A stretch of DNA of 64,000 nt from Vampirovibrio chlorellavorus (GTDB taxonomy: Bacteria; Cyanobacteriota; Vampirovibrionia; Vampirovibrionales; Vampirovibrionaceae): positions 434,001 through 498,000 of the forward strand of contig LAPX01000004.1 in assembly GCA_001858525.1 (NCBI GenBank), written 5' to 3'. The notes under the pieces are model-generated. The model had not been told where the DNA came from. It saw only the letters and a program-made list of their open reading frames with translations, and searched no databases. The position numbers were made by a program, and so were the translations under genes. Shown here piece after piece: positions 3,203 through 33,360 of the stretch (its first letter is position 1; each line of letters starts with the position of its first letter).

Positions 3203-4609
3203 ATGCAAGCCCTTACCAACCTATGGCGCGCCGTATTTAGTGACGAGCCCTTTAGTGCCAGCCGAAACTTTCTGATTTGTGCCATATTCTACCTGGTGTT
3301 TGGCATGTTGTTCGGTCTGATCGCATCGTTATTGATGTATAGTCCAGACCTGATTCATGGGATTCCGCAGTTGGCTTTTGGCCGGTTACGTCCAGCGCAC
3401 ATTAATACCGTGTTGATTGGCTGGCTTTCCATGGGTTATGTGTCTTGTATGTATTACATCGTGCCGGTTTTGTCGGGGCGTAAGAGTCTTTGGTCTGAGC
3501 GCTTGGGGAATATCACGCTCTTTCTCTGGAATTTAACTGTCTTTGTGGGTGTTTACAGTATTTTGAACGGTTACACCGAAGGCAGAGAGTACGCTGAACT
3601 GAACGGGCCGTTCGACTGGTTGGTGTTGGGCGCCCTGTTGCTGGTCGGCTTGAACGTTTACATGACCATCTTCACTGGTACCGAGAAGAAATGGTACGTG
3701 AGCCTGTGGTACTTCATGGGTGCATTGTTCTGGTTCCCCATTGTGTACGTGATTGGTAACCGGGCTTTTGTTCAGTTTACCGGCTTGAACGACGCCATAG
3801 CCGGTTGGTTTTATGGACACAACATTCTGGGGATGTGGTTTACCGTCGGCGGTGTGGGTATTCTCTACTACCTGTTGCCCCGTTTTTCCGGCAATCCGCT
3901 GTACAGTCACACATTGTCCATGATTGGCTTCTGGACCATCGGGATGTTCTACGCCCCCACCGGGACGCACCACATTCTGCAATCTCCCGTTCCGGAATGG
4001 TTGAAGGCTATCGCCGTTATCTCCAGCGTATTCTTGTTGATCCCGGTGTTAACCGTGCAGGTCAACTTCTTTATGACTTTGAAGGGTAAGTGGCATTTAA
4101 TGGCCGATCACATCCCCATGCGCTTTGCCATGGCTGCTGGTTTGGCTTATTTGCTGACTTGTATGCAGGGTCCATTCCAGGCCACCCGGTCTATCAACTG
4201 GTACCTGCACTTTTCTAACTGGGTGGTGGGTCACGCTCACTTGGCCCTGTTGGCTACCTTCTCCTTCATCGTGTTTGCGGCTTCCTACTTCATCATTCCT
4301 AAAATCACTGGCCGCAAAATATACAGCCGTTCATTGGCCATCTGGCACTTCTGGCTCAGCTTTATCGGGTGGATTGTCATGATGATCTCATTGACCATCG
4401 CGGGCCTGATTCAGGCCGCTGGCTGGCACTTTACCTTGCCTTACGATCAGTGGGTCATGGAAATGGTGCCTTACTTCATCGTTCGGACCTTCTCCGGCTT
4501 ACTGTTGATTGCCGGTCAGGTGCTGTACATGTTGAATATTTACAAAACGGTCTTCTCCAAATCGGCTGAGCCGCTGCCGGAGTCTCCGACCGGAATCGCT
4601 TACGTATAG
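3203..4609 (+). CDS. ccoN: cbb3-type cytochrome c oxidase subunit I
   Basis: A 468-residue, multi-helix heme-copper oxygen reductase catalytic subunit of the C family, which reduces O2 to water in the cytoplasmic membrane. All expected ligands are visible: His66 and His346 for low-spin heme b, His344 for heme b3, and His206, His256 and His257 for CuB. Tyr250 is at the position of the His-Tyr crosslink (six residues before the His-His pair, as in known cbb3 enzymes). Length is normal. It is the first gene of a same-strand cluster running to about 12.2 kb. C-family oxidases usually have high O2 affinity, suggesting microaerobic use; that is inferred from the family. Confidence 0.95.
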   Translation: MQALTNLWRAVFSDEPFSASRNFLICAIFYLVFGMLFGLIASLLMYSPDLIHGIPQLAFGRLRPAHINTVLIGWLSMGYVSCMYYIVPVLSGRKSLWSERLGNITLFLWNLTVFVGVYSILNGYTEGREYAELNGPFDWLVLGALLLVGLNVYMTIFTGTEKKWYVSLWYFMGALFWFPIVYVIGNRAFVQFTGLNDAIAGWFYGHNILGMWFTVGGVGILYYLLPRFSGNPLYSHTLSMIGFWTIGMFYAPTGTHHILQSPVPEWLKAIAVISSVFLLIPVLTVQVNFFMTLKGKWHLMADHIPMRFAMAAGLAYLLTCMQGPFQATRSINWYLHFSNWVVGHAHLALLATFSFIVFAASYFIIPKITGRKIYSRSLAIWHFWLSFIGWIVMMISLTIAGLIQAAGWHFTLPYDQWVMEMVPYFIVRTFSGLLLIAGQVLYMLNIYKTVFSKSAEPLPESPTGIAYV

Positions 4610-4644
4610 GGCGAACGCAAGGACTATTTAAGGAAAAGACGACT

Positions 4645-5688
4645 ATGCAACCTCGAATTCTTAACTACCTGATTGCCGCTGTCTTTGTGGCCCTAATCTT
4701 TCTAACCATCATTTTTGTAACCGCCATTTTGCCGGCGACTACCTTCCAACCGGAAGCGTCCAAGCAGGGTTCTTACATTTACACTGCCAGTGAATGGCGA
4801 GGTCGGGAAATCTACAAACGGGAAGGTTGTGTTTACTGCCATACCCAATTTGTTCGTTACCAGGATCGTGAAATGGGTGAGATGGTTCAGGCGGGCGATT
4901 ACTTGCACGAGACCCCTCACTTGCTGGGTACGGAACGGACTGGTCCCGATTTGTCCAACATTGGTGGTAAATACCCGGATGCCTGGCACTGGGCACACCA
5001 CGTTCAGCCCCGTTCTGTGAAGCCTGGTTCTTTAATGCCGTCTTTCAGTTACTTGAAAGACAGCGAAATGAAGGACTTGGTGGCCTATTTGCAAACCTTG
5101 GGCAGAGAGCGTGAATTAGAGGCTCGTCGTCGCAAAAAGCCTGATCATCTAGCTTCTGCCGCTGGCCATGGTGCGGCGCCCGCTCAGGACCCCCTGACCT
5201 GGTTGGAAGCGCCTCAGGAAATGCGCGATGAGTGGAAACGGATTTCCAAAAACGTGGATACGGATAACTCGGCCATTGCTAACTCGGGTCGCGGTATCTA
5301 TATGCAAAACTGCGCTCAGTGTCACGGTGTAACCGGTCGGGGCAATGGTCCGGTCAGTTCCTCCATGATTAAGAAGCCTGCCAACTTGACCCGTCCTTTC
5401 TACAAGAGCTACACCGATGCGTTGTACTACTGGCGTCTGAAGGAAGGCGTAACCGGTACCCGCATGCCTCGCTGGGGACGTAGTTTAAGTGAGCAGCAGC
5501 TGGCATATCTGGTCGCTTTTATTAAAACCTTGCCGGTCAATGCGGCTACCCCATCTTCTGAGGTAGAAGTTGTAAACTATTCTCAGTTGGATCAGCCGGA
5601 TGTCATGTCTAAAAACTACGAGCAGATTTCTCGGTTGACGGAAATCAAAGACGAGTATCCTGAGCAACTTGGAGGCGGAAGACATTAA
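4645..5688 (+). CDS. ccoO: cbb3 oxidase subunit II (CcoO) fused to a second cytochrome c domain
   Basis: A 347-residue protein with one N-terminal membrane helix (about residues 8-30) and two c-type heme domains. The first is a CcoO domain with CVYCH (Cys62, Cys65, His66), the following TQFVR and a likely axial Met131 in LMPSF. A linker (about 155-205, basic then acidic) leads to a second cytochrome c domain with CAQCH (Cys223, Cys226, His227) and probable axial Met274 in TRMPRWG. Ordinary CcoO carries one heme; the second domain resembles those of CcoP. The heme normally supplied by CcoP therefore seems to be appended here. It lies 35 bases after ccoN with an AAGGA-like ribosome site. Confidence 0.92.
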   Translation: MQPRILNYLIAAVFVALIFLTIIFVTAILPATTFQPEASKQGSYIYTASEWRGREIYKREGCVYCHTQFVRYQDREMGEMVQAGDYLHETPHLLGTERTGPDLSNIGGKYPDAWHWAHHVQPRSVKPGSLMPSFSYLKDSEMKDLVAYLQTLGRERELEARRRKKPDHLASAAGHGAAPAQDPLTWLEAPQEMRDEWKRISKNVDTDNSAIANSGRGIYMQNCAQCHGVTGRGNGPVSSSMIKKPANLTRPFYKSYTDALYYWRLKEGVTGTRMPRWGRSLSEQQLAYLVAFIKTLPVNAATPSSEVEVVNYSQLDQPDVMSKNYEQISRLTEIKDEYPEQLGGGRH

Positions 5689-5690
5689 AT

Positions 5691-5858
5691 ATGTGCCCAT
5701 CCTGTCTTTCTGGTGGTATCGGACCCGGCTATATTGCAGCCTTTGCTATTTGCGGCCTGTTTTTCCTGATTGCTTTTGCGGCCATGTTTTGGGCCTCCCG
5801 AAACGGCAAGCTGGATAATCTGGAAGATTCCAAGTTTCGCATGCTGCAAGATGATTAA
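5691..5858 (+). CDS. ccoS: CcoS-like small membrane protein (oxidase maturation)
   Basis: A 55-residue ORF missed by the ORF track. A single hydrophobic helix (about residues 14-34) is followed by FWASRNGKLDNLED and an acidic end (MLQDD). This matches the shape and conserved tail of CcoS, which normally reads W-x-x-R/K-x-G-Q-F-D-D-L-E and ends in acidic residues. CcoS is needed for heme b and copper insertion into cbb3 oxidase. An N-terminal MCPSC motif is unusual and could bind metal. It starts 2 bases after the ccoO stop, within the ccoO ribosome-site context (GGAGG at the ccoO 3' end). Confidence 0.75.
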   Translation: MCPSCLSGGIGPGYIAAFAICGLFFLIAFAAMFWASRNGKLDNLEDSKFRMLQDD

Positions 5859-5878
5859 TCGGAACGGAGTTTTTCCTT

Positions 5879-6055
5879 ATGTCTGAAGAGAACAATACAA
5901 GCGGACAATCGACCAACCTCAACGAAGCGGCTTTGCCCAAACCTTACGATGAGTTCGAGGTTGGTGAGCACAAGGTTCCCTGGTTTTTGTGGTTATTTTT
6001 CATTCTGATTGTAGGCTGGGCCTCCATTTCCTGGATTCAGTTTTTTGGATATTAA
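5879..6055 (+). CDS. small membrane protein resembling the CcoP N-terminal anchor
   Basis: A 58-residue ORF not in the ORF track. An acidic, polar N-terminus contains KPYDEFEVGEHKVPWF and runs into one hydrophobic helix, ending QFFGY. The pattern (acidic stretch, Tyr-Asp, then a Trp-rich start of a helix) resembles the CcoP segment just before its second membrane helix (YDNPLPxWW). It contains no heme motif. With an extra cytochrome c domain on CcoO and a diheme lipoprotein downstream, I infer that the CcoP function has been divided among separate polypeptides. The resemblance is short, so it could be another single-helix subunit. A GGAG lies upstream of the ATG. Confidence 0.6.
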   Translation: MSEENNTSGQSTNLNEAALPKPYDEFEVGEHKVPWFLWLFFILIVGWASISWIQFFGY

Positions 6056-6073
6056 GCAAAAAGGCTATATTAA

Positions 6074-7219
6074 ATGGACTTCTCGTTTAAAATGCAGACT
6101 TTCAAAAAGCGACCGCCGTTACTGGCATTGGCCTTGGTTGCAGCCACCGCGTCCACTATTTTATTGAGTGGATGTAGCAACGCCCCGGATAAGGCGAGTT
6201 TAGGCAATGCCAACATTGCGGCGCAGCCAGTGTTTAACCAACAGATGAGCGCTGAGGATTTTGCCTTTCCCTCCAAACGTCCTTCTTTAATGAAAGGTCG
6301 GGAGATTTTCCAGCAGCACTGCGTGAAATGTCACGCCGCTTCTTTCTGGCAAACCCAAAAGGTGAAAGTGGATTTGGCTTACACCACGCCCATCGACATG
6401 TATCGCTTCCTGACCCGTGGAGAAGTGAAGCAACTGGTGAATGAGCACGGTGAGCCCATTCCCGAATTGTTGACCGCTGAGCGTAAAAAGCTGCTACCCA
6501 AAGGGCACCCTGCTTTCAGAAATGTGCTGAATGCCGATGAGCGTTGGGCAGCCATTTTCTACGTTCGTTATCTGGCTGGCGCCGGTGATATGAAATCCCC
6601 GGATCCTAAGCAGGACATTGCCGGTATTTTTGGTGGTAACTGCGCGGTTTGTCATGGCTCCAAAGGCCAAGGCGATGGCTTTTTGCACACGGGTAAAACC
6701 GGTAACCATGAGCTGCATGACGCTTCACAGTTGAAGAACTTGCAGCCAGCCCCGGCGAACTTCCAGCAATACAGTCGTGTTTACAACCGGACAGACGCCC
6801 AATTGCTGAAGTATCTTTGTGAAGGCGTTTATCCTTCCGCCATGCCAGCCTGGTATGGGGATGTTAACCTGGATAAAGAAACCGGTAAGCCGACCTTTGT
6901 TTTCGATGAACCCTTGTTGACCAACCTGGTACGCTATGTGCGGGCTTGGGCTTACGATAACGATCTGAACCCGGATTTGCCAGAGGCTAAAAACCCCCCG
7001 CCGGGCTTGGGCATCATTCAATCTTGCAAGCCAATGCCCACCAACCGCCCCTGGACTGAAGCCATGCAGAACAATGGCCCCAACAAAGGGCACCACTATC
7101 GCATTATGCCTGCAGATCCCATTACCGGCGGTATGACCCACGTTGGCCCCGAGCCTGTGGGACCCGTGGTTCGGGAGGCATCTGCCTTGAAAAATGAGAA
7201 GCAAGGAGGGGCTATCTAA
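6074..7219 (+). CDS. diheme cytochrome c lipoprotein
   Basis: A 381-residue exported protein with lipobox LLSGC (Cys34) and two heme c sites: CVKCH (Cys83, Cys86, His87) and CAVCH (Cys190, Cys193, His194). The second is followed by GSKGQGDG, as in CcoP and class I cytochromes. The C-terminal 90 residues are Pro/Gly-rich with no further heme. Its position between oxidase genes and the Rieske gene suggests it carries electrons between the quinol-oxidising unit and the oxidase, replacing CcoP or a mobile cytochrome c. That role is inferred. The start at 6074 gives a compact signal peptide. Confidence 0.88.
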   Translation: MDFSFKMQTFKKRPPLLALALVAATASTILLSGCSNAPDKASLGNANIAAQPVFNQQMSAEDFAFPSKRPSLMKGREIFQQHCVKCHAASFWQTQKVKVDLAYTTPIDMYRFLTRGEVKQLVNEHGEPIPELLTAERKKLLPKGHPAFRNVLNADERWAAIFYVRYLAGAGDMKSPDPKQDIAGIFGGNCAVCHGSKGQGDGFLHTGKTGNHELHDASQLKNLQPAPANFQQYSRVYNRTDAQLLKYLCEGVYPSAMPAWYGDVNLDKETGKPTFVFDEPLLTNLVRYVRAWAYDNDLNPDLPEAKNPPPGLGIIQSCKPMPTNRPWTEAMQNNGPNKGHHYRIMPADPITGGMTHVGPEPVGPVVREASALKNEKQGGAI

Positions 7220-7220
7220 A

Positions 7221-7871
7221 ATGAACCGACGAGATTTCTTGAAAATTATTGTCAGTATTCCCGTTTTAGGTGCTTTGGCTCTGTTTGTCTCCCCCTTGTT
7301 TCGTTATCTACGCCCTTCTTCAGGTCCTTTAAAAACCACGTCCTGGGATTTAAAAGGGAAGCCGACTGATTGGCATGGGGTTTCCGGCTTGGTGAAACAA
7401 CCCGATATGCCCAAGGCCGACCGGAGTATCGAGTTTGATTTGTCCATGTTCCCGACGCCGTGGTCTTATCAGCCTTTTACCTTCAGTCAGCAGAGCAAGG
7501 AATACACTTTCAAGCACTTTCAGGCCAGCAAAATTCCCGGGTTCGTAGTGCGCTTGCCTGAGGACAAGAATGGTAAACCCGACTTTATTGTGGTCAGCCG
7601 TATTTGTCCTCACATGGGTTGCGTTTTCAACTTCTTGCCCGATCCGGCTGAGGCAGCTGCCTACAACTATCCATCGGCCAAAAACCCCTTGTTTGCTTGC
7701 CCTTGTCACTTGAGTGTTTATGATCCCCTGCAATCTCAGGAAGTGAGCGGTCAAATGCTGGCCGGGAAAGTGGTTAGTGGGCCAGCTCCCCGTCCGCCCC
7801 GTCATTTTCAGTATGACATGCAAGGCTCAAAGCTTGTTATTACCGCACTAGAAGCGGGAGGTATTGCGTAA
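7221..7871 (+). CDS. Rieske [2Fe-2S] protein
   Basis: A 216-residue Rieske protein that accepts the first electron from quinol in a bc-type complex. An N-terminal NRRDFLK twin-arginine-like motif precedes a membrane anchor (about residues 9-28). The cluster box is CPHMGC (Cys129, His131, Cys134) and CPCH (Cys160, Cys162, His163), giving two Cys and two His ligands plus the conserved disulfide pair. The ATG at 7221 is chosen over the ORF-track start because an AAGGAGG ribosome site sits at the right distance and the Tat-like motif begins there. It ends immediately before the cytochrome b start. Confidence 0.93.
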   Translation: MNRRDFLKIIVSIPVLGALALFVSPLFRYLRPSSGPLKTTSWDLKGKPTDWHGVSGLVKQPDMPKADRSIEFDLSMFPTPWSYQPFTFSQQSKEYTFKHFQASKIPGFVVRLPEDKNGKPDFIVVSRICPHMGCVFNFLPDPAEAAAYNYPSAKNPLFACPCHLSVYDPLQSQEVSGQMLAGKVVSGPAPRPPRHFQYDMQGSKLVITALEAGGIA

Positions 7872-9374
7872 ATGGTAGCCACAAATACGTTTGATCCCAA
7901 GCAACTTCCAGCCCAAGCTTTTAATTGGGTGATGGAGCGCGTTCAAAAGATTGACTTGTTTGACGAGACTAAGGTGGACTTGCAATCGGAGTCTCCCTGG
8001 TACCAGTTGGGTGGGCTTTACTACCTTTGCTGGGTCATGGTTCTTATGACTGGCGTTATCTTGGTGGCCATTTATTTGCCCACCACGGCGCAAGCCTACA
8101 ACTCTGTAGATTTGCTCTCTCACAACCCGCTCGGGTCTATTCTGCGTGGGCTTCATAAATATAGTGGTGATGCCATGATTATTGCCGCCACTTTGCGGGT
8201 GTACCGTATGTGGTTTACCGCTGAATATAAGAACAAGGGTGAATTGACTTTTGTTTTGGGTATTTTGTTGCTGGTAATCGCTATGTACTCCGGTTTGAGT
8301 GGCTATTTGCTAATCTGGAACCAGCGTGCCTTTTGGGCGACCAAGGTATTCGCCACCTTCCCCACCTACTTGGATATTACCCCCGCCAACTGGGCTTGGC
8401 CTTGGGATTTTGCCCATTACAAAAGTTCCTGGCTGATTCCCAACATGATTGGTGCGGTGACCCAATTGATTGGTAACATTACTCACCAAGGTTTTAGTAC
8501 TTCCCAGATTCTGATGGGGGGTAGTTCCATTGGTCAGGCGACCATGACCCGGTTCTACTCACTGCACTTTGCCTTGTCCCTGATTCTGTTGGTCACTTCC
8601 GAAATCTACTTCTACAAAAATCGTTTGAACCGCATCAATCTGAAGAAGCCCTTGGTGTTCCTGGTGATTGCCATGCTGGTGTTCACGGCCATCATCTTCC
8701 CTGCGGAATCCGGTACACGGGCTAACCCAGAGGTTACTCCCCTGCCCATTCTGTCTGATTGGTACTTCTTGGCCTTGTACCAGTTGCTGAAGTACATGGA
8801 TCCTTACTGGGCCACCATTTGGACACTGGGTATTCCCTTTGTGACCATTGGCTTGACCTTGCTGGATTTTGGTCCTGAAAGAAACTGGTTAAAGCGCCCC
8901 TTGTTCACAACCATTGGCATTATGGCGGCGATTGAGTTTGTGGTGTTCTCCATGCTGATTATCGCCAACATGGCCAATATCGAAACCGATCCGCCTTACT
9001 GGTTCGCTCACCTGATTGCTATGATTACCATTGGTCAGTTCTGGCATTGGGCTATGTACAAACAGCGCTTGCCCATGACGGTTTGGGTCTTGTTCAATTT
9101 GGCTACCAGTGCGTTCTATCTCATCTTCTGGCACCTTGTGGTGGAAAACACCAAATTGGCTGGCGCTTTTGGCGGTCACAGCATGGTTGCCTGGTTTGAG
9201 ATGATGTTCCACGGGGCATCCGTTTCCATCAACTTCACCAACTTGTATTGGAGCATGTTGTGGTTAGGCTATGCCGTGGTTCAAATGCTGGTCGCTGGCT
9301 TCTTGTTCTGGATTGACCGGGCCCAGCGGGACGCTCGTTTGGGAGCTTTACAACCTGAAGGAGCCCGCGCTTAA
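7872..9374 (+). CDS. cytochrome b/b6-like protein lacking heme bH ligands
   Basis: A 500-residue membrane protein combining the N-terminal heme-binding bundle and the C-terminal (subunit IV-like) helices of cytochrome b. In helix B, LHKYSGD supplies His95, but the residue 14 further on, normally the second ligand, is Arg109. In helix D, His232 is present, but the expected second His is Tyr246 (with Phe247). Thus the bL pair (95/232) is kept while both bH ligands are missing. The Qo PEWY motif reads SDWY (295-298). The C-terminus has additional helices beyond residue 380. It directly abuts the Rieske gene and is likely its partner. The loss of bH ligands is read directly from the translation. 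Confidence 0.9.
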   Translation: MVATNTFDPKQLPAQAFNWVMERVQKIDLFDETKVDLQSESPWYQLGGLYYLCWVMVLMTGVILVAIYLPTTAQAYNSVDLLSHNPLGSILRGLHKYSGDAMIIAATLRVYRMWFTAEYKNKGELTFVLGILLLVIAMYSGLSGYLLIWNQRAFWATKVFATFPTYLDITPANWAWPWDFAHYKSSWLIPNMIGAVTQLIGNITHQGFSTSQILMGGSSIGQATMTRFYSLHFALSLILLVTSEIYFYKNRLNRINLKKPLVFLVIAMLVFTAIIFPAESGTRANPEVTPLPILSDWYFLALYQLLKYMDPYWATIWTLGIPFVTIGLTLLDFGPERNWLKRPLFTTIGIMAAIEFVVFSMLIIANMANIETDPPYWFAHLIAMITIGQFWHWAMYKQRLPMTVWVLFNLATSAFYLIFWHLVVENTKLAGAFGGHSMVAWFEMMFHGASVSINFTNLYWSMLWLGYAVVQMLVAGFLFWIDRAQRDARLGALQPEGARA

Positions 9375-9375
9375 T

Positions 9376-9705
9376 ATGTCCCGGCTGTCGCAGGAGCATG
9401 ATTTTGGTCCCAAGCCTTTAAACAAGGTGACTTGGTGGTTTTTCTTTCTCCTGGCCACTTTTGTTGCTTCGCTAGGCTTTCAGACTTTCAAGGTCTTTAC
9501 TTTGAACCCCAACTGGTTGAACGCTGGCTTGTGGCTCTTGGTAATGGTGCTTCTGTTCCAGTCCATTGGCATTTTGGCTTATGACAGCTATGTTCAGGAA
9601 AAGCACAAAGGTAACGTGCAAAAACCGGTAAAGTTATTTGATTGGATGATTCGGAAAGGTTTCTTACTGAGAATCAGTTCTGAGAAAAAAGGAAATAATC
9701 AATGA
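9376..9705 (+). CDS. unrecognised two-helix membrane protein of the respiratory cluster
   Basis: A 109-residue protein starting at the ATG (MSRLSQEHDF) one base after the cytochrome b stop; the longer track ORF merely reads back into that gene. Two hydrophobic segments (about residues 19-38 and 47-67) are followed by a basic C-terminal tail. No heme, Fe-S or catalytic motif is visible. Its stop overlaps the next gene by four bases (ATGA), so the two are translationally coupled. Probably an accessory subunit of the cytochrome b complex; that is context only. Confidence 0.75.
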   Translation: MSRLSQEHDFGPKPLNKVTWWFFFLLATFVASLGFQTFKVFTLNPNWLNAGLWLLVMVLLFQSIGILAYDSYVQEKHKGNVQKPVKLFDWMIRKGFLLRISSEKKGNNQ

Positions 9706-10013
9706 ATTCATCAAAAAACAATTGGAGAGATGTGCTCGCTCTGCTGATTGCCGTTGCCTCTTTGTTTGGGTTATGGGTCATGTTTAACGCTGAAGGCAGT
9801 GTCTGGCTGGTCAACCTGGTCGGCGGACAGCCCCAGGAGATCCTGAATCCTCTGGACATTTTCAAGCAGTTTCAAAGCGTTATTTTGCCAGGCCTGCAAA
9901 AGTACAGTTTTGCCATCGGTCTGATTTTGTTTGCCGTTAGTATTTCATACATTTTATTGGGCGCGCAGGAAGAAATTTCCACTGCGTTAGATGACCCAAA
10001 AACCAAGCAATAG
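9702..10013 (+). CDS. unrecognised two-helix membrane protein of the respiratory cluster
   Basis: A 103-residue protein with hydrophobic helices at about residues 10-40 and 62-86, a short extracytoplasmic loop and an acidic tail (EEISTALDD). No cofactor motif is seen. It overlaps the preceding gene by ATGA and lies 24 bases before the cytochrome b-ferredoxin fusion. The paired arrangement of two similar-sized two-helix proteins between two cytochrome b genes suggests they bridge or stabilise the complex. Confidence 0.75.
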   Translation: MNSSKNNWRDVLALLIAVASLFGLWVMFNAEGSVWLVNLVGGQPQEILNPLDIFKQFQSVILPGLQKYSFAIGLILFAVSISYILLGAQEEISTALDDPKTKQ

Positions 10014-10037
10014 ACGTGCTAAAAAGGAGTTAAGCCC

Positions 10038-11186
10038 GTGTATACCGAACCATTACAGAACGCCACACTCTGGCTGGAGAAAGGTTTAAACAAACTTTTT
10101 TCCCAAAAATATAACCCCTTCTATTACCACGGGGCTTTACCGAACTTCTTCATTTGGGCCCTGTTTATTTCCGGGTTGCTGTTGTTTGCCTACTACCAGC
10201 CAACATTGGCTACTGCCTATGCCTCGGTTCGCTACATCACCTTTGAATTGCCGTTTGGTAACCTGTTTCGTTCCATTCACCGCTATGCCAGCGATGGGAT
10301 GATGATTTTCGTGATGTTGCACATGTTCCGGGTCTGGTTTACGGATCGCTACCGGGAATATCGCATCGTCCCCTGGGTTACCGGGGTGGTTTTGCTGGTG
10401 ATTACTTTTATTCTGGGCTTGACCGGATACTTGCTGATCTGGGATCAGGAAGCGGTGACGCTGGCCAACATGACCTTCAACCTGGTTGGCAAAACGCCTT
10501 TCATCGGTACGGCCTTGGCTGAAGCCCTAATGGCTGGCAAGATGATTACCGACTACACCCTGACCCGCATGATGTTCCTGCACTTGGGTATTCCCTTGTT
10601 TATGATGTTCATGCTGTGGTTGCACTACCTGCGCATTACCCGCCCGGTTTCCGAACCGCCTTTGGCCTTGGTGGTCATGTTGTCCGGCGTGTTGTTTCTG
10701 GTGTCTGCCGCGTTCCCGGTCGGCTTGGGAACCTTGCAGAATATGGCTGATCCGGCTGCGGCGCCCTTGCTGACCGCTGTAAGCCCCAATGTGTATTTTG
10801 ATTTGTTGTACGCCTGGCCTCAGTATCTGGCGGCTCATAACGTGGCTCCCCTGTTGGTGGTCTTGCTGGTGATTGCCGTGCCGGTGGGTCTGTTGATTCT
10901 GCCCTACCTGCAAAAGAAAGCGCTGCGTGATCAGTTTGCGGTGGTTACCCGTGAAAATTGCACAGGTTGCTCTCTCTGCTATAACGATTGCCCCTATGAA
11001 GCCATTGAGATGGTGGATCGTGGTAACGACGGCACACGCTTCAAGCGTTTGGCTGTGGTTGACCCGGGACGTTGCGCCAACTGCGGTTTGTGCGTAGGTG
11101 CTTGTGCCTTCAAGGCCATTGAAATTCCCCGCCGGGATACCAACAATGTACTGGCTGAGATTGAAGCCGCTCTGACAGTTTCTTAA
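10038..11186 (+). CDS. cytochrome b N-terminal domain fused to a two-[4Fe-4S] ferredoxin domain
   Basis: A 382-residue fusion. Residues about 30-290 form a cytochrome b bundle with all four heme ligands (His81, His95, His182, His196), so it should hold both bL and bH. Residues 305-365 hold two ferredoxin motifs, Cys308/311/314/318 and Cys346/349/352/356, predicting two [4Fe-4S] clusters on the side following the last helix. This would let electrons pass between the b hemes and a soluble Fe-S partner. The start is GTG at 10038 with AAGGAG upstream. An MvhD-like gene follows 14 bases later. The domain reading is firm; the electron path is inferred. Confidence 0.92.
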   Translation: MYTEPLQNATLWLEKGLNKLFSQKYNPFYYHGALPNFFIWALFISGLLLFAYYQPTLATAYASVRYITFELPFGNLFRSIHRYASDGMMIFVMLHMFRVWFTDRYREYRIVPWVTGVVLLVITFILGLTGYLLIWDQEAVTLANMTFNLVGKTPFIGTALAEALMAGKMITDYTLTRMMFLHLGIPLFMMFMLWLHYLRITRPVSEPPLALVVMLSGVLFLVSAAFPVGLGTLQNMADPAAAPLLTAVSPNVYFDLLYAWPQYLAAHNVAPLLVVLLVIAVPVGLLILPYLQKKALRDQFAVVTRENCTGCSLCYNDCPYEAIEMVDRGNDGTRFKRLAVVDPGRCANCGLCVGACAFKAIEIPRRDTNNVLAEIEAALTVS

Positions 11187-11200
11187 TAAGGAAAGCGCTG

Positions 11201-11629
11201 ATGACTACTGAAAATCCTAAATTGATTGGCCTGGTCTGCGAGCGGAGCGTGGACTTTGAAGGTCACCTGGATGAAGATGGCAATATGCTGGATCATCCTT
11301 CGGTTAAAATCATTCGCGTCCCTTGCAGTGGCCAAATTCAGCCCGTTATGCTGGAAACCGCTCTAAAGAACGGTGCCAGCGGCACATTTGCCTTGGGCTG
11401 CCGCATGGGCGACTGCCACTACCGTGAAGGTAACAAGTTCTGCCGGGATCGCCTGACTGGCAAACGTATGCCTAAGCTGAAGCCCAGCGTGGACAAGCGT
11501 CGCGTTCAGGGCTACTGGCTTTCAGCGGTTGAATACGACAAGCTGAATGAGCTGGTGGGGCAGTTTGTTGAGGATTGCAAGTCCTTACCCACCCCGGAAG
11601 TAAAGTCCACCGCCAAGGCCGCCAAGTAG
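11201..11629 (+). CDS. MvhD/FlpD-family [2Fe-2S] electron-transfer protein
   Basis: A 142-residue protein matching the delta subunit (MvhD/FlpD) that links hydrogenase or formate dehydrogenase to heterodisulfide reductase. The family signature is present: Cys13 near the N-terminus, PCSG (Cys42), then LGCRMGDCHYREGN (Cys67 and Cys72), giving four likely [2Fe-2S] ligands; Cys81 is extra. No hydrogenase or HdrA gene is in the window. Its neighbour is a cytochrome b-ferredoxin fusion in an aerobic oxidase cluster, an atypical place for the family. It probably docks on that ferredoxin domain. Confidence 0.9.
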   Translation: MTTENPKLIGLVCERSVDFEGHLDEDGNMLDHPSVKIIRVPCSGQIQPVMLETALKNGASGTFALGCRMGDCHYREGNKFCRDRLTGKRMPKLKPSVDKRRVQGYWLSAVEYDKLNELVGQFVEDCKSLPTPEVKSTAKAAK

Positions 11630-11647
11630 CCATAGGAAGAGATTGAA

Positions 11648-11758
11648 ATGGAAGATCGCAAAGATATTTCTTTATTTATCAAATACGTTTGGTTTTATCT
11701 CTTCTACTTTGCCTTGATACTATTGATCGCTAGCTTTGGTATCATTGCAGAGAGTTAG
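11648..11758 (+). CDS. 36-residue single-helix membrane peptide
   Basis: A short ORF missed by the track: a charged N-terminus (MEDRKDIS), then one hydrophobic, aromatic-rich helix ending in AES. It has a GGAAGAG ribosome site and sits between the MvhD-like gene and the four-helix protein with tight spacing on both sides. Its composition is like the tiny accessory subunits of respiratory complexes. Function unknown. Confidence 0.6.
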   Translation: MEDRKDISLFIKYVWFYLFYFALILLIASFGIIAES

Positions 11759-11773
11759 TAGGAGAGATTGATT

Positions 11774-12238
11774 ATGTCTAATCACCCAGAGCATCACGAA
11801 GACCATCATTTTGACGTTACCACCGCTGGTGGCCGCTTTTCGTGGTTTTTTAAGGAGTTTTGGCCGATCATTTTGCCTGCTTCTTGCTTTCTGTTAATGA
11901 ACGCCATTCCCCTCACATTGTCCGGGATGATGCACAACTACTTCAGTTCCGCTGATGTGGTTTGGGGCGGTTATGGCCTGCTGTTGATTGTTGAATTCCT
12001 GGTAGCAGTGGCCATTGTGTGCCTGGTGCCCCATTTGCTGGGCGCTTACTTGCTGCTGTTGGCTGTTTACGGTTTGGTGACCGCTGAAAATGGTCATGCC
12101 TGGACTGCTGGCTTTGTCAGCGACGGCCATAATACCTGGATGATCAACACCATTTCCATTCTGTTTTTGACCTATGTAGCCATTGGAAACCTGGTGTTTC
12201 TGAACGCCTTGCGGAACCAAAGAAAAAGTCGCTTGTAA
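11774..12238 (+). CDS. unrecognised four-helix membrane protein, last gene of the respiratory cluster
   Basis: A 154-residue protein starting at the ATG after a GGAGAG ribosome site. The N-terminus is His/Glu-rich (NHPEHHEDHHF), which could bind metal. Four hydrophobic helices follow (about residues 25-50, 60-85, 88-105, 120-145). There is no conserved cofactor motif that I recognise. The size and helix count are compatible with a quinone-site or oxidase subunit III/IV-like accessory, but this is not established. Confidence 0.75.
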   Translation: MSNHPEHHEDHHFDVTTAGGRFSWFFKEFWPIILPASCFLLMNAIPLTLSGMMHNYFSSADVVWGGYGLLLIVEFLVAVAIVCLVPHLLGAYLLLLAVYGLVTAENGHAWTAGFVSDGHNTWMINTISILFLTYVAIGNLVFLNALRNQRKSRL

Positions 12239-32259: not shown

Positions 32260-33360
32260 TTACCCGGTTGTGCAGTTGGTGGCTATGCACGCTTCCAACG
32301 CGTGCCATCGACCGTGTTGAAAGGCCTGTGTAATGCTGTGGGCTTTGAGTGCCGCTTGCTCTGGTGAAAGGTTCCACACCGCTTGTCGAGCCATCGTGCC
32401 CATGCCCACCCCGGCGATGAATTGAGCCTCGGGCGCTTGCAACAGGGTGGCGGTATGCTGATTAATACCGCCGGAAATGGTAATGATGGGCGGGGTGAGT
32501 CCGGCTTGCTCAAAGGCGAGGCGGGTTTGCAGGGCGGATTGTAAGGCGGGCCGTGAGGCCTCCGGGTGATCGTTGCCCGACATGGGGGCGCCATCAATTT
32601 GCAGGAAGATGGGCAATGGGTGGGTTTGCTGGGCGGTTTGCACAAAGCGAATCATCTGCTCAGCGGGGACCGTTTCCGGCCGAAAGCACAGGGCGATAAG
32701 CTTGTTTTTCAGCAGAGGCTGCCAGCGAATAAGGAAGGCTTCCAGCATATAGGGATCCACATAATGGCTGTGAATCTCTACCGCCTCGGTGGCCGGATGA
32801 CTGAGGGCCGCTTCAATCTGGCTTTCCACCTGAAATGGTAGCAAGTGAAGGGCATCGGTGGGGCAGGTGGGTACACAGCGCCCGCAGCCGTAGCAAAGGT
32901 CTTGGGAGATATCCAACGCATCCGGCAGGGTGATGGCTTGGGTGGGGCAGGCGGGCAAGCACAGCCCGCACTGAATGCAATCGGGTTTGCTCAGTTCAAT
33001 CTTTCGGAAATGCGGGTCTGGATCGAGAGGCACGCTGACCATGAGCACGGCTGATCTGGACTGGCTGTTTTCAATTTCCTGTTGCACCAGGCCAATCAGG
33101 GTTGCATCAGGGGCGATATCAATACAATCCGCGCTGGCTGATAAATAAGCCCGGCTGACGGCAGCGGTTTTATCGGCCTGAGTGAAGCTGCCCCCGCCAA
33201 TGAGCTTGAAAAAGCGCCGTTGCAAAAGGGCCTCCCACATGCGGGCCTGTGCGGCGCTGAAGGGGAAGGGTGGGGCGGGTTTGGGCAGTGGGGTGAGGGG
33301 AAGGCTCATAGCCCTTACACCATAGCCAAAGGATGGGCGGGGTTCAACATGCTGCCCCAT
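32260..33360 (-). CDS. ldpA: LdpA-like iron-sulfur protein (light-dependent period family)
   Basis: A 366-residue protein. The N-terminal part (FFKLIGGGSF, SADCIDIAPDATLI, LMVSVPLDPDPHFRKIEL) follows the cyanobacterial LdpA pattern. Two ferredoxin motifs follow: Cys128/131/134/138 and Cys156/159/162/166, predicting two [4Fe-4S] clusters. The C-terminal half (about 180-350) is an LdpA-type alpha/beta domain. In Synechococcus LdpA senses redox state and adjusts the circadian period. No clock gene is seen in this window, so its role here is open. Start uncertain: ATG 33360 or ATG 33309 (MSLPLTPL). Confidence 0.85.
   Translation of the reverse strand: MGQHVEPRPSFGYGVRAMSLPLTPLPKPAPPFPFSAAQARMWEALLQRRFFKLIGGGSFTQADKTAAVSRAYLSASADCIDIAPDATLIGLVQQEIENSQSRSAVLMVSVPLDPDPHFRKIELSKPDCIQCGLCLPACPTQAITLPDALDISQDLCYGCGRCVPTCPTDALHLLPFQVESQIEAALSHPATEAVEIHSHYVDPYMLEAFLIRWQPLLKNKLIALCFRPETVPAEQMIRFVQTAQQTHPLPIFLQIDGAPMSGNDHPEASRPALQSALQTRLAFEQAGLTPPIITISGGINQHTATLLQAPEAQFIAGVGMGTMARQAVWNLSPEQAALKAHSITQAFQHGRWHALEACIATNCTTG

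Follow-up and report, generated by a model that had tools for sequence, protein, structure and literature searches.

The cytochrome b6f and bc1 complexes and the supercomplexes of complexes III and IV (Pseudomonas bc1-cbb3, 8SMR) between them comprise a Rieske protein, cytochrome b, a c-type cytochrome and a cbb3-type oxidase. Their two b halves are identical, carry two hemes each, and include neither a ferredoxin domain nor an MvhD subunit. An engineered Rhodobacter bc1, derived from a mutated single gene and a fusion, combines G158W in one cytochrome b with H212N in the other; the cross-inactivated dimer is reported to work through electron transfer between the two hemes bL, with the quinone site Qi as exit (Swierczek 2010, as cited in PMC4330944). 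In Kuenenia, the Rieske/b complexes Kuste4569-4574 and Kustd1480-1485 have a cytoplasmic iron-sulfur port and a multiheme c side, and quinone-based bifurcation to NAD(P) has been proposed for them (PMC12954380). Here we describe a gene cluster of Vampirovibrio chlorellavorus (class Vampirovibrionia) that compares with each of these systems. It occupies positions 3203-12238 of the window analysed, a 64,000-nucleotide stretch of contig LAPX01000004.1 (assembly GCA_001858525.1, positions 434,001 to 498,000), and encodes a cbb3 oxidase, a Rieske protein, an MvhD-like protein and two cytochromes b, here b1 and b2-Fd, the latter with a fused ferredoxin domain. The original prediction, made from this DNA, treated the two as like cytochromes b. 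In effect, they differ in a complementary manner: b1 lacks the site of heme bH and b2 lacks a normal quinol-oxidising (Qo) site. We rate at slightly better than even the chances that b1 and b2 would form an obligate heterodimer operating with cbb3, in which quinol would be oxidised at b1 and electrons would leave through the ferredoxin domain and MvhD.

Of the histidines of cytochrome b6, H86 and H187 ligate heme bL on the p-side, and H100 and H202 ligate heme bH on the n-side. This protein is the best match of both b1 and b2, and the heme ligand positions were taken from an alignment to the b6 of 2ZT9. In b1 (7872-9374, + strand like the whole cluster; Cytochrome_B 1.7e-24, Cytochrom_B_C 1.4e-6) the bL ligands H95 and H232 are kept in all 50 sequences. 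At the bH positions, residue 109 is Arg (40) or Lys (10) and residue 246 is Tyr (50/50), so that the bH ligands occur in none of the 50. With both ligands replaced, b1 can hold bL and not bH. Of the two hemes b per half that are usual in Rieske/b complexes, b2 thus has the ligands for both (51/51), and b1 for one (50/50). The Qo elements of b1 are intact: the ef loop reads LPILSDWYFL in 50/50 sequences, and the WNQRAFWATK stretch of the cd1 helix is invariant. The former bH site holds invariant charged residues, R/K109 and E244, beside Y246; where the heme would sit, these may form an intramembrane ion pair.

The b2-Fd gene (10038-11186) encodes a six-transmembrane (TM) cytochrome b (Cytochrome_B 4.4e-32) with a C-terminal 2x[4Fe-4S] domain (Fer4_7 4.6e-10). 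Its four ligands, H81, H95, H182 and H196, are kept in 51/51 sequences. Residue 142 of the cd1 helix, seven positions past the conserved Trp, is Leu in 36 and Ile in 15 of the 51 sequences; the same position is Ala in b1 (50/50), in b6 and in six canonical cytochromes b of sister genomes. If the conserved W-x-Q motif is read as we propose, this residue would be the equivalent of R. capsulatus G158. A Trp at that position inactivates Qo (PMC4330944), and an earlier study names side-chain size at this residue as critical for Qo in its title (Atta-Asafo-Adjei and Daldal 1991, in PMC4330944). The ef loop of b2 is DL(L)Y in V. chlorellavorus and degenerate in Vampirovibrionales; most families outside this order have DWF(F/Y)L. 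The Qo site of b2 would therefore be blocked or altered rather than vanished. A plain absence of the Qo motif from b2 was considered and rejected: strict loss of the PEWY region is confined to Vampirovibrionales, and the constant feature is the Leu/Ile at the G158 equivalent. From the topology, with six TM segments both in the sequence and in a structural model of moderate confidence, the ferredoxin domain is predicted to be cytoplasmic, on the same side as bH.

These complementary losses of bH and Qo pocket, like the cofactor motifs, the gene order and the co-occurrence described below, are read directly from the sequences. Since b1 has no heme bH, the second electron of quinol oxidation would have to cross to bL of b2; in a dimer of b1 alone it would be stranded on bL. 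The genome (3.03 Mb, 28 contigs, 99.6% complete) encodes no PF00033 protein other than b1 and b2, which makes the cluster the only candidate for a Rieske/b-type complex III. The losses in the two proteins are understandable only for partners acting jointly, and this complementarity marks the pair as a functional unit, very probably a physical one. Thus, of the single supercomplex originally put forward, the functional unit is supported, and a physical supercomplex is what we infer from sequence, as we do the heterodimer, the transfer between hemes bL and the outward cytoplasmic direction. The arrangement is like that of the engineered Rhodobacter bc1 in having Qo in one b, bH in the other and bL-bL transfer as the sole path between the sites; unlike it, two different genes are involved and a 2x[4Fe-4S]/MvhD port lies at the bH side.

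In our preferred reading, quinol would be oxidised by b1, at its Qo site. The first electron would pass from the Rieske cluster through the diheme cytochrome c and the one fused to CcoO, and so reach cbb3 and O2. The second would move from bL of b1 to bL of b2, then to bH of b2 at the cytoplasmic side, the two [4Fe-4S] clusters of b2 and MvhD, which would hand it to a soluble low-potential carrier. In this way a soluble iron-sulfur port would replace, or supplement, what the Qi half does in the classical Q cycle. The same heterodimer might instead run an ordinary Q cycle, bH of b2 reducing quinone at Qi, with the ferredoxin domain and MvhD as structural or regulatory additions. The pair does hold all the hemes needed, and the engineered cross-inactivated bc1 works in this manner. 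However, all eight Cys of the ferredoxin domain and four of MvhD are kept in 50-51 of 51 sequences, which is unexpected for a structural add-on, and the Cys that binds heme c_n is absent (Y30 in b2, Gln in b1). We regard the ordinary Q cycle as improbable.

The co-occurrence of b1 and b2 was assessed in 289 genomes of the class. The b2-Fd query gave 83 matches, three of them canonical cytochromes b (E ~1e-31), and the b1 query 79. Both proteins are found together in 77 of the 82 genomes carrying either. In four of the five exceptions the match, judging from its coordinates, sits close to the end of a contig; the remaining one is a fragment of 99 residues from a genome that is 56% complete. Colinearity of the core genes on one strand holds in all 49 b1-bearing loci, which span six families of the class, so the order is not due to chance. 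An order unique to this genome, combined with independent expression of the genes, would, in the terms of the original prediction, have made a joint complex unlikely; the order is not unique. Among 386 sampled genomes of the phylum, b2-Fd is restricted to members of this class. Separately, some sister genomes (loci L118-L123) carry an additional, separate canonical Rieske/cytochrome b pair with four His and PEWY. A "Chloroflexi" metagenome-assembled genome (MAG) contig, L040, carries a cluster of the Obscuribacterales type whose b1 and b2 group inside the class, and is probably mis-binned.

The branching pattern of the cytochrome b tree places b1 with canonical b and b6 sequences, and b2 with a wider group of b2-Fd-MvhD fusions, with long branches that leave the deep joins uncertain. 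A recent duplication of one b gene was thus rejected, as the groups that hold b1 and b2 are distinct and supported. In MAGs of Chloroflexota, Myxococcota, Gemmatimonadota and Pseudomonadota, b2, ferredoxin domain and MvhD form a single polypeptide; a b1 without bH was sought in nine such genomes and found in none (0/9). These fusions (loci L047-L055) are 525-721 amino acids long and often adjoin a heme-copper subunit I, a COX2 cupredoxin and Sco. The subunit I of L049, read unaligned, has GHMSQQ at the oxygen-reductase Tyr position, a motif reported there for eNOR (PMC8756737). The occurrence of b2-Fd-MvhD without b1 in all nine genomes, together with the absence of a recent common duplication, would fit b1/Rieske and b2-Fd/MvhD being two separate complexes that share one operon. 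Nevertheless, the second electron of a b1-only complex would have no exit, and genomes of the class essentially never carry one of b1 and b2 without the other, save for a few draft fragments. Two separate complexes therefore appear very improbable to us.

The oxidase branch of the preferred heterodimer reading depends on the Rieske protein, the cytochromes c and the oxidase. The Rieske [2Fe-2S] protein (7221-7871; Rieske 4.2e-4 in Pfam, 3.2e-10 in NCBIfam) has an RRDFLK signal resembling that of twin-arginine translocation, and its cluster boxes, C130/H132/C135 and C161/C163/H164, are present in 49/49 sequences; S166 is likewise found in 49/49, and Y168 in 38/49, with Phe otherwise. Upstream of it lies a diheme cytochrome c (6074-7219) in which two CxxCH motifs and M257 are conserved, with a lipobox-like Cys34 in 41/48. 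The ccoO gene (4645-5688; FixO 2e-35, Cytochrom_C 1.7e-20) also encodes a further, fused cytochrome c domain, and the CxxCH motifs C62-H66 and C223-H227, with M131 and M274, are invariant in 48/48. There is no separate CcoP in the cluster, where CcoO carries the added domain; the lipoprotein-like diheme protein is a probable replacement of cytochrome c1 and may also stand in for CcoP, and together with the CcoO-fused domain it probably relays electrons from the Rieske protein to CcoN. The latter (3203-4609; COX1 2.7e-83, PDB CcoN 1.5e-62 over residues 17-455), when aligned to PDB CcoN, has H66, H206, Y250, H256, H257, H344 and H346 invariant in 48/48. The ligands of the low-spin heme, heme b3 and CuB and the helix-VII Tyr are thus all present, as expected of the cbb3/C family. 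The intact Qo motif of b1 and the intact CcoN ligands support two parts of the original prediction, that quinol is the donor and O2 the acceptor. The gene order and known relatives make a physical III-IV supercomplex plausible.

At the cytoplasmic end, the MvhD/FlpD-like [2Fe-2S] protein (11201-11629; PDB MvhD 2e-19, NCBIfam VhuD 2.7e-12, HdrA2 C-terminus 4.2e-21) is the sole PF02662 match in the genome. C13, C42, C67 and C72, its candidate cluster ligands, are kept in 51/51 sequences, but the CNWC motif lacks its second Cys. The ferredoxin domain and MvhD match neighbouring stretches of HdrA2 (571-643 and 644-772), and so share with methanogen HdrABC-MvhD a pair of adjacent HdrA2 C-terminal modules. 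In contrast to that system, the HdrA flavin core is absent from the genome, where the HdrA2 model matches only the cluster ferredoxin and MvhD stretches and one other ferredoxin protein; the partner is a cytochrome b, and HdrBC was not seen, although no search for it was made. MvhD is therefore not in a classical Hdr setting. For the Kuenenia complexes, the models are homodimers that contain heme c_n and a FAD/NAD(P) subunit, and cbb3 genes are lacking, whereas in V. chlorellavorus b1 lacks bH, the c_n Cys is absent and MvhD sits in the place of the NAD(P) reductase.

Genome searches detected a complex I core (NuoD) and no NuoF, two 2-oxoacid:ferredoxin oxidoreductase genes of the POR_N type, and two PF02621 matches (MqnA/MqnD-type), which suggest menaquinone. 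Respiration in this organism may run on ferredoxin, given the POR_N genes and a complex I without NuoF. The original prediction had a soluble donor perhaps feeding electrons to O2. This is one of two possible directions; the reverse, in which quinone-based bifurcation would export low-potential electrons, is no less likely. For import, the same b1:b2 heterodimer would work backwards, a reduced ferredoxin or other soluble donor passing electrons through MvhD, the ferredoxin domain and bH of b2 to a Qi-like quinone site or to the oxidase. The ferredoxin-to-b6f route has been proposed for cyclic electron flow, and import would be its hard-wired counterpart. The two POR_N-type genes and the absence of NuoF agree with this direction, as do the fusions of other phyla, which lie beside a heme-copper oxidase or nitric oxide reductase-like subunit, a cupredoxin and Sco, or a copper ATPase, with no adjacent Rieske or b1; feeding a terminal reductase from the cytoplasm would be their simplest role. 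Conserved n-side residues of b2 (N26, Y29-A33, R199 and R202) could also line a quinone site. On the other hand, a ferredoxin-using complex I would oxidise ferredoxin already, and with more proton pumping, and a Qi site in b2 is hypothetical. Moreover, the Rieske Ser and Tyr and menaquinone better suit a low-potential output. Import seems to us rather unlikely.

The outward direction of the preferred reading is slightly favoured by those same Rieske residues, S166 and Y168, beside menaquinone-type genes. Ser and Tyr at these positions are linked to a high potential, and in the Kuenenia study a high-potential Rieske cluster combined with menaquinone is argued to give a very low bL potential, sufficient for NAD(P) (PMC12954380). 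Since complex I lacks NuoF, the exported low-potential electrons might re-enter there. In its most complete form, which we offer only tentatively, the scheme would be an O2-driven bifurcation of quinol with obligatory bL-bL transfer, in which the carrier (ferredoxin or NAD(P)) would be reduced through the ferredoxin domain and MvhD and returned through a complex I without its NADH module. Several observations weigh against export through the heterodimer. Electron movement from bL to the n-side opposes the membrane potential. The two POR_N genes imply that reduced ferredoxin may be plentiful, with less need to make more. No conserved flavoprotein, dehydrogenase or FAD/NAD(P) oxidoreductase subunit that could serve as MvhD partner was found beside the cluster, where the flanks vary between families, and the cluster itself encodes no FAD/NAD(P) subunit. 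Outside Vampirovibrionales the DWF(F/Y)L loop of b2 implies that its Qo-like site is altered and not erased. Finally, the AlphaFold model of b1 is poor (predicted local distance difference test score, pLDDT, 50), and that of b2 recovers a cytochrome b fold with moderate support (pLDDT 73).

The remaining genes complete the layout. Open reading frame calls and family profile searches bear out the thirteen tightly spaced, same-strand genes first reported, with intergenic gaps of -4 to 35 nucleotides; thirteen is the right count when a 36-amino-acid gene, below the open reading frame cut-off, and a 109-amino-acid gene starting at the ATG at 9376 are included. The domain content reported earlier (cbb3, Rieske, two cytochromes b, ferredoxin fusion and MvhD) likewise agrees with the family matches. 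A ccoS-like small protein (5691-5858; FixS 3.3e-7) is followed by a 58-amino-acid single-TM protein in the CcoQ position (5879-6055), which has no family match and occurs in the same position in 47 loci. Between b1 and b2 lie small membrane protein A (109 amino acids, 9376-9705) and the two-TM protein B (9702-10013). Related proteins, two-TM ones in the case of B, are found there in other families by eye; a strict pattern for A matched 8/49, its counterparts being judged by reading the sequences. The 36-amino-acid single-TM protein (11648-11758), read from the sequence, has homologues in the same position in 43 loci and, like the A/B pair, recurs across families. The last gene, for a 154-amino-acid membrane protein (11774-12238), is found only in some loci of the near family. 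As this gene is so confined and the flanking genes vary between families, the unit ends at the 36-amino-acid gene. Promoter and terminator scans of the cluster gave signals near chance level; the next gene 3' is rpsP, 74 nucleotides past the cluster. In one family (loci L080-L086), downstream flank genes resemble, by eye, AprA/AprB of adenylylsulfate reductase. Elsewhere in the window, an LdpA-like protein with the LdpA Fe-S and C-terminal domains is encoded at 32263-33360 on the - strand, in this non-photosynthetic relative of cyanobacteria; LdpA is a cyanobacterial clock-related protein.

A combination of complexes III and IV, with petB/petC beside a type C oxidase, has been described in Obscuribacter and other Melainabacteria (PMC6349859, in the passages found). 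It is very probably the same cluster; those passages name b6f-like subunits only and do not mention MvhD, the ferredoxin fusion or the missing heme ligands. Our search of the accessible literature brought up nothing on the asymmetric b pair, the ferredoxin fusion, MvhD or the complementary ligand losses. The cluster is best filed as a variant within the Rieske/cytochrome b complexes, in which Rieske and Qo chemistry are kept and the two-heme symmetry is lost. Electron passage between the two halves of complex III in vivo has been a matter of debate for decades, with evidence from engineered mutants. If our reading is correct, this would be a natural complex with bL-bL transfer as the only path, which would establish that such transfer can be physiological and provide a system in which to measure it. 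It would also represent a new tie between the respiratory chain and ferredoxin chemistry, found in those relatives of cyanobacteria that are closest to them among non-photosynthetic lineages, and would bear on the origin of b6f and of its link to ferredoxin.

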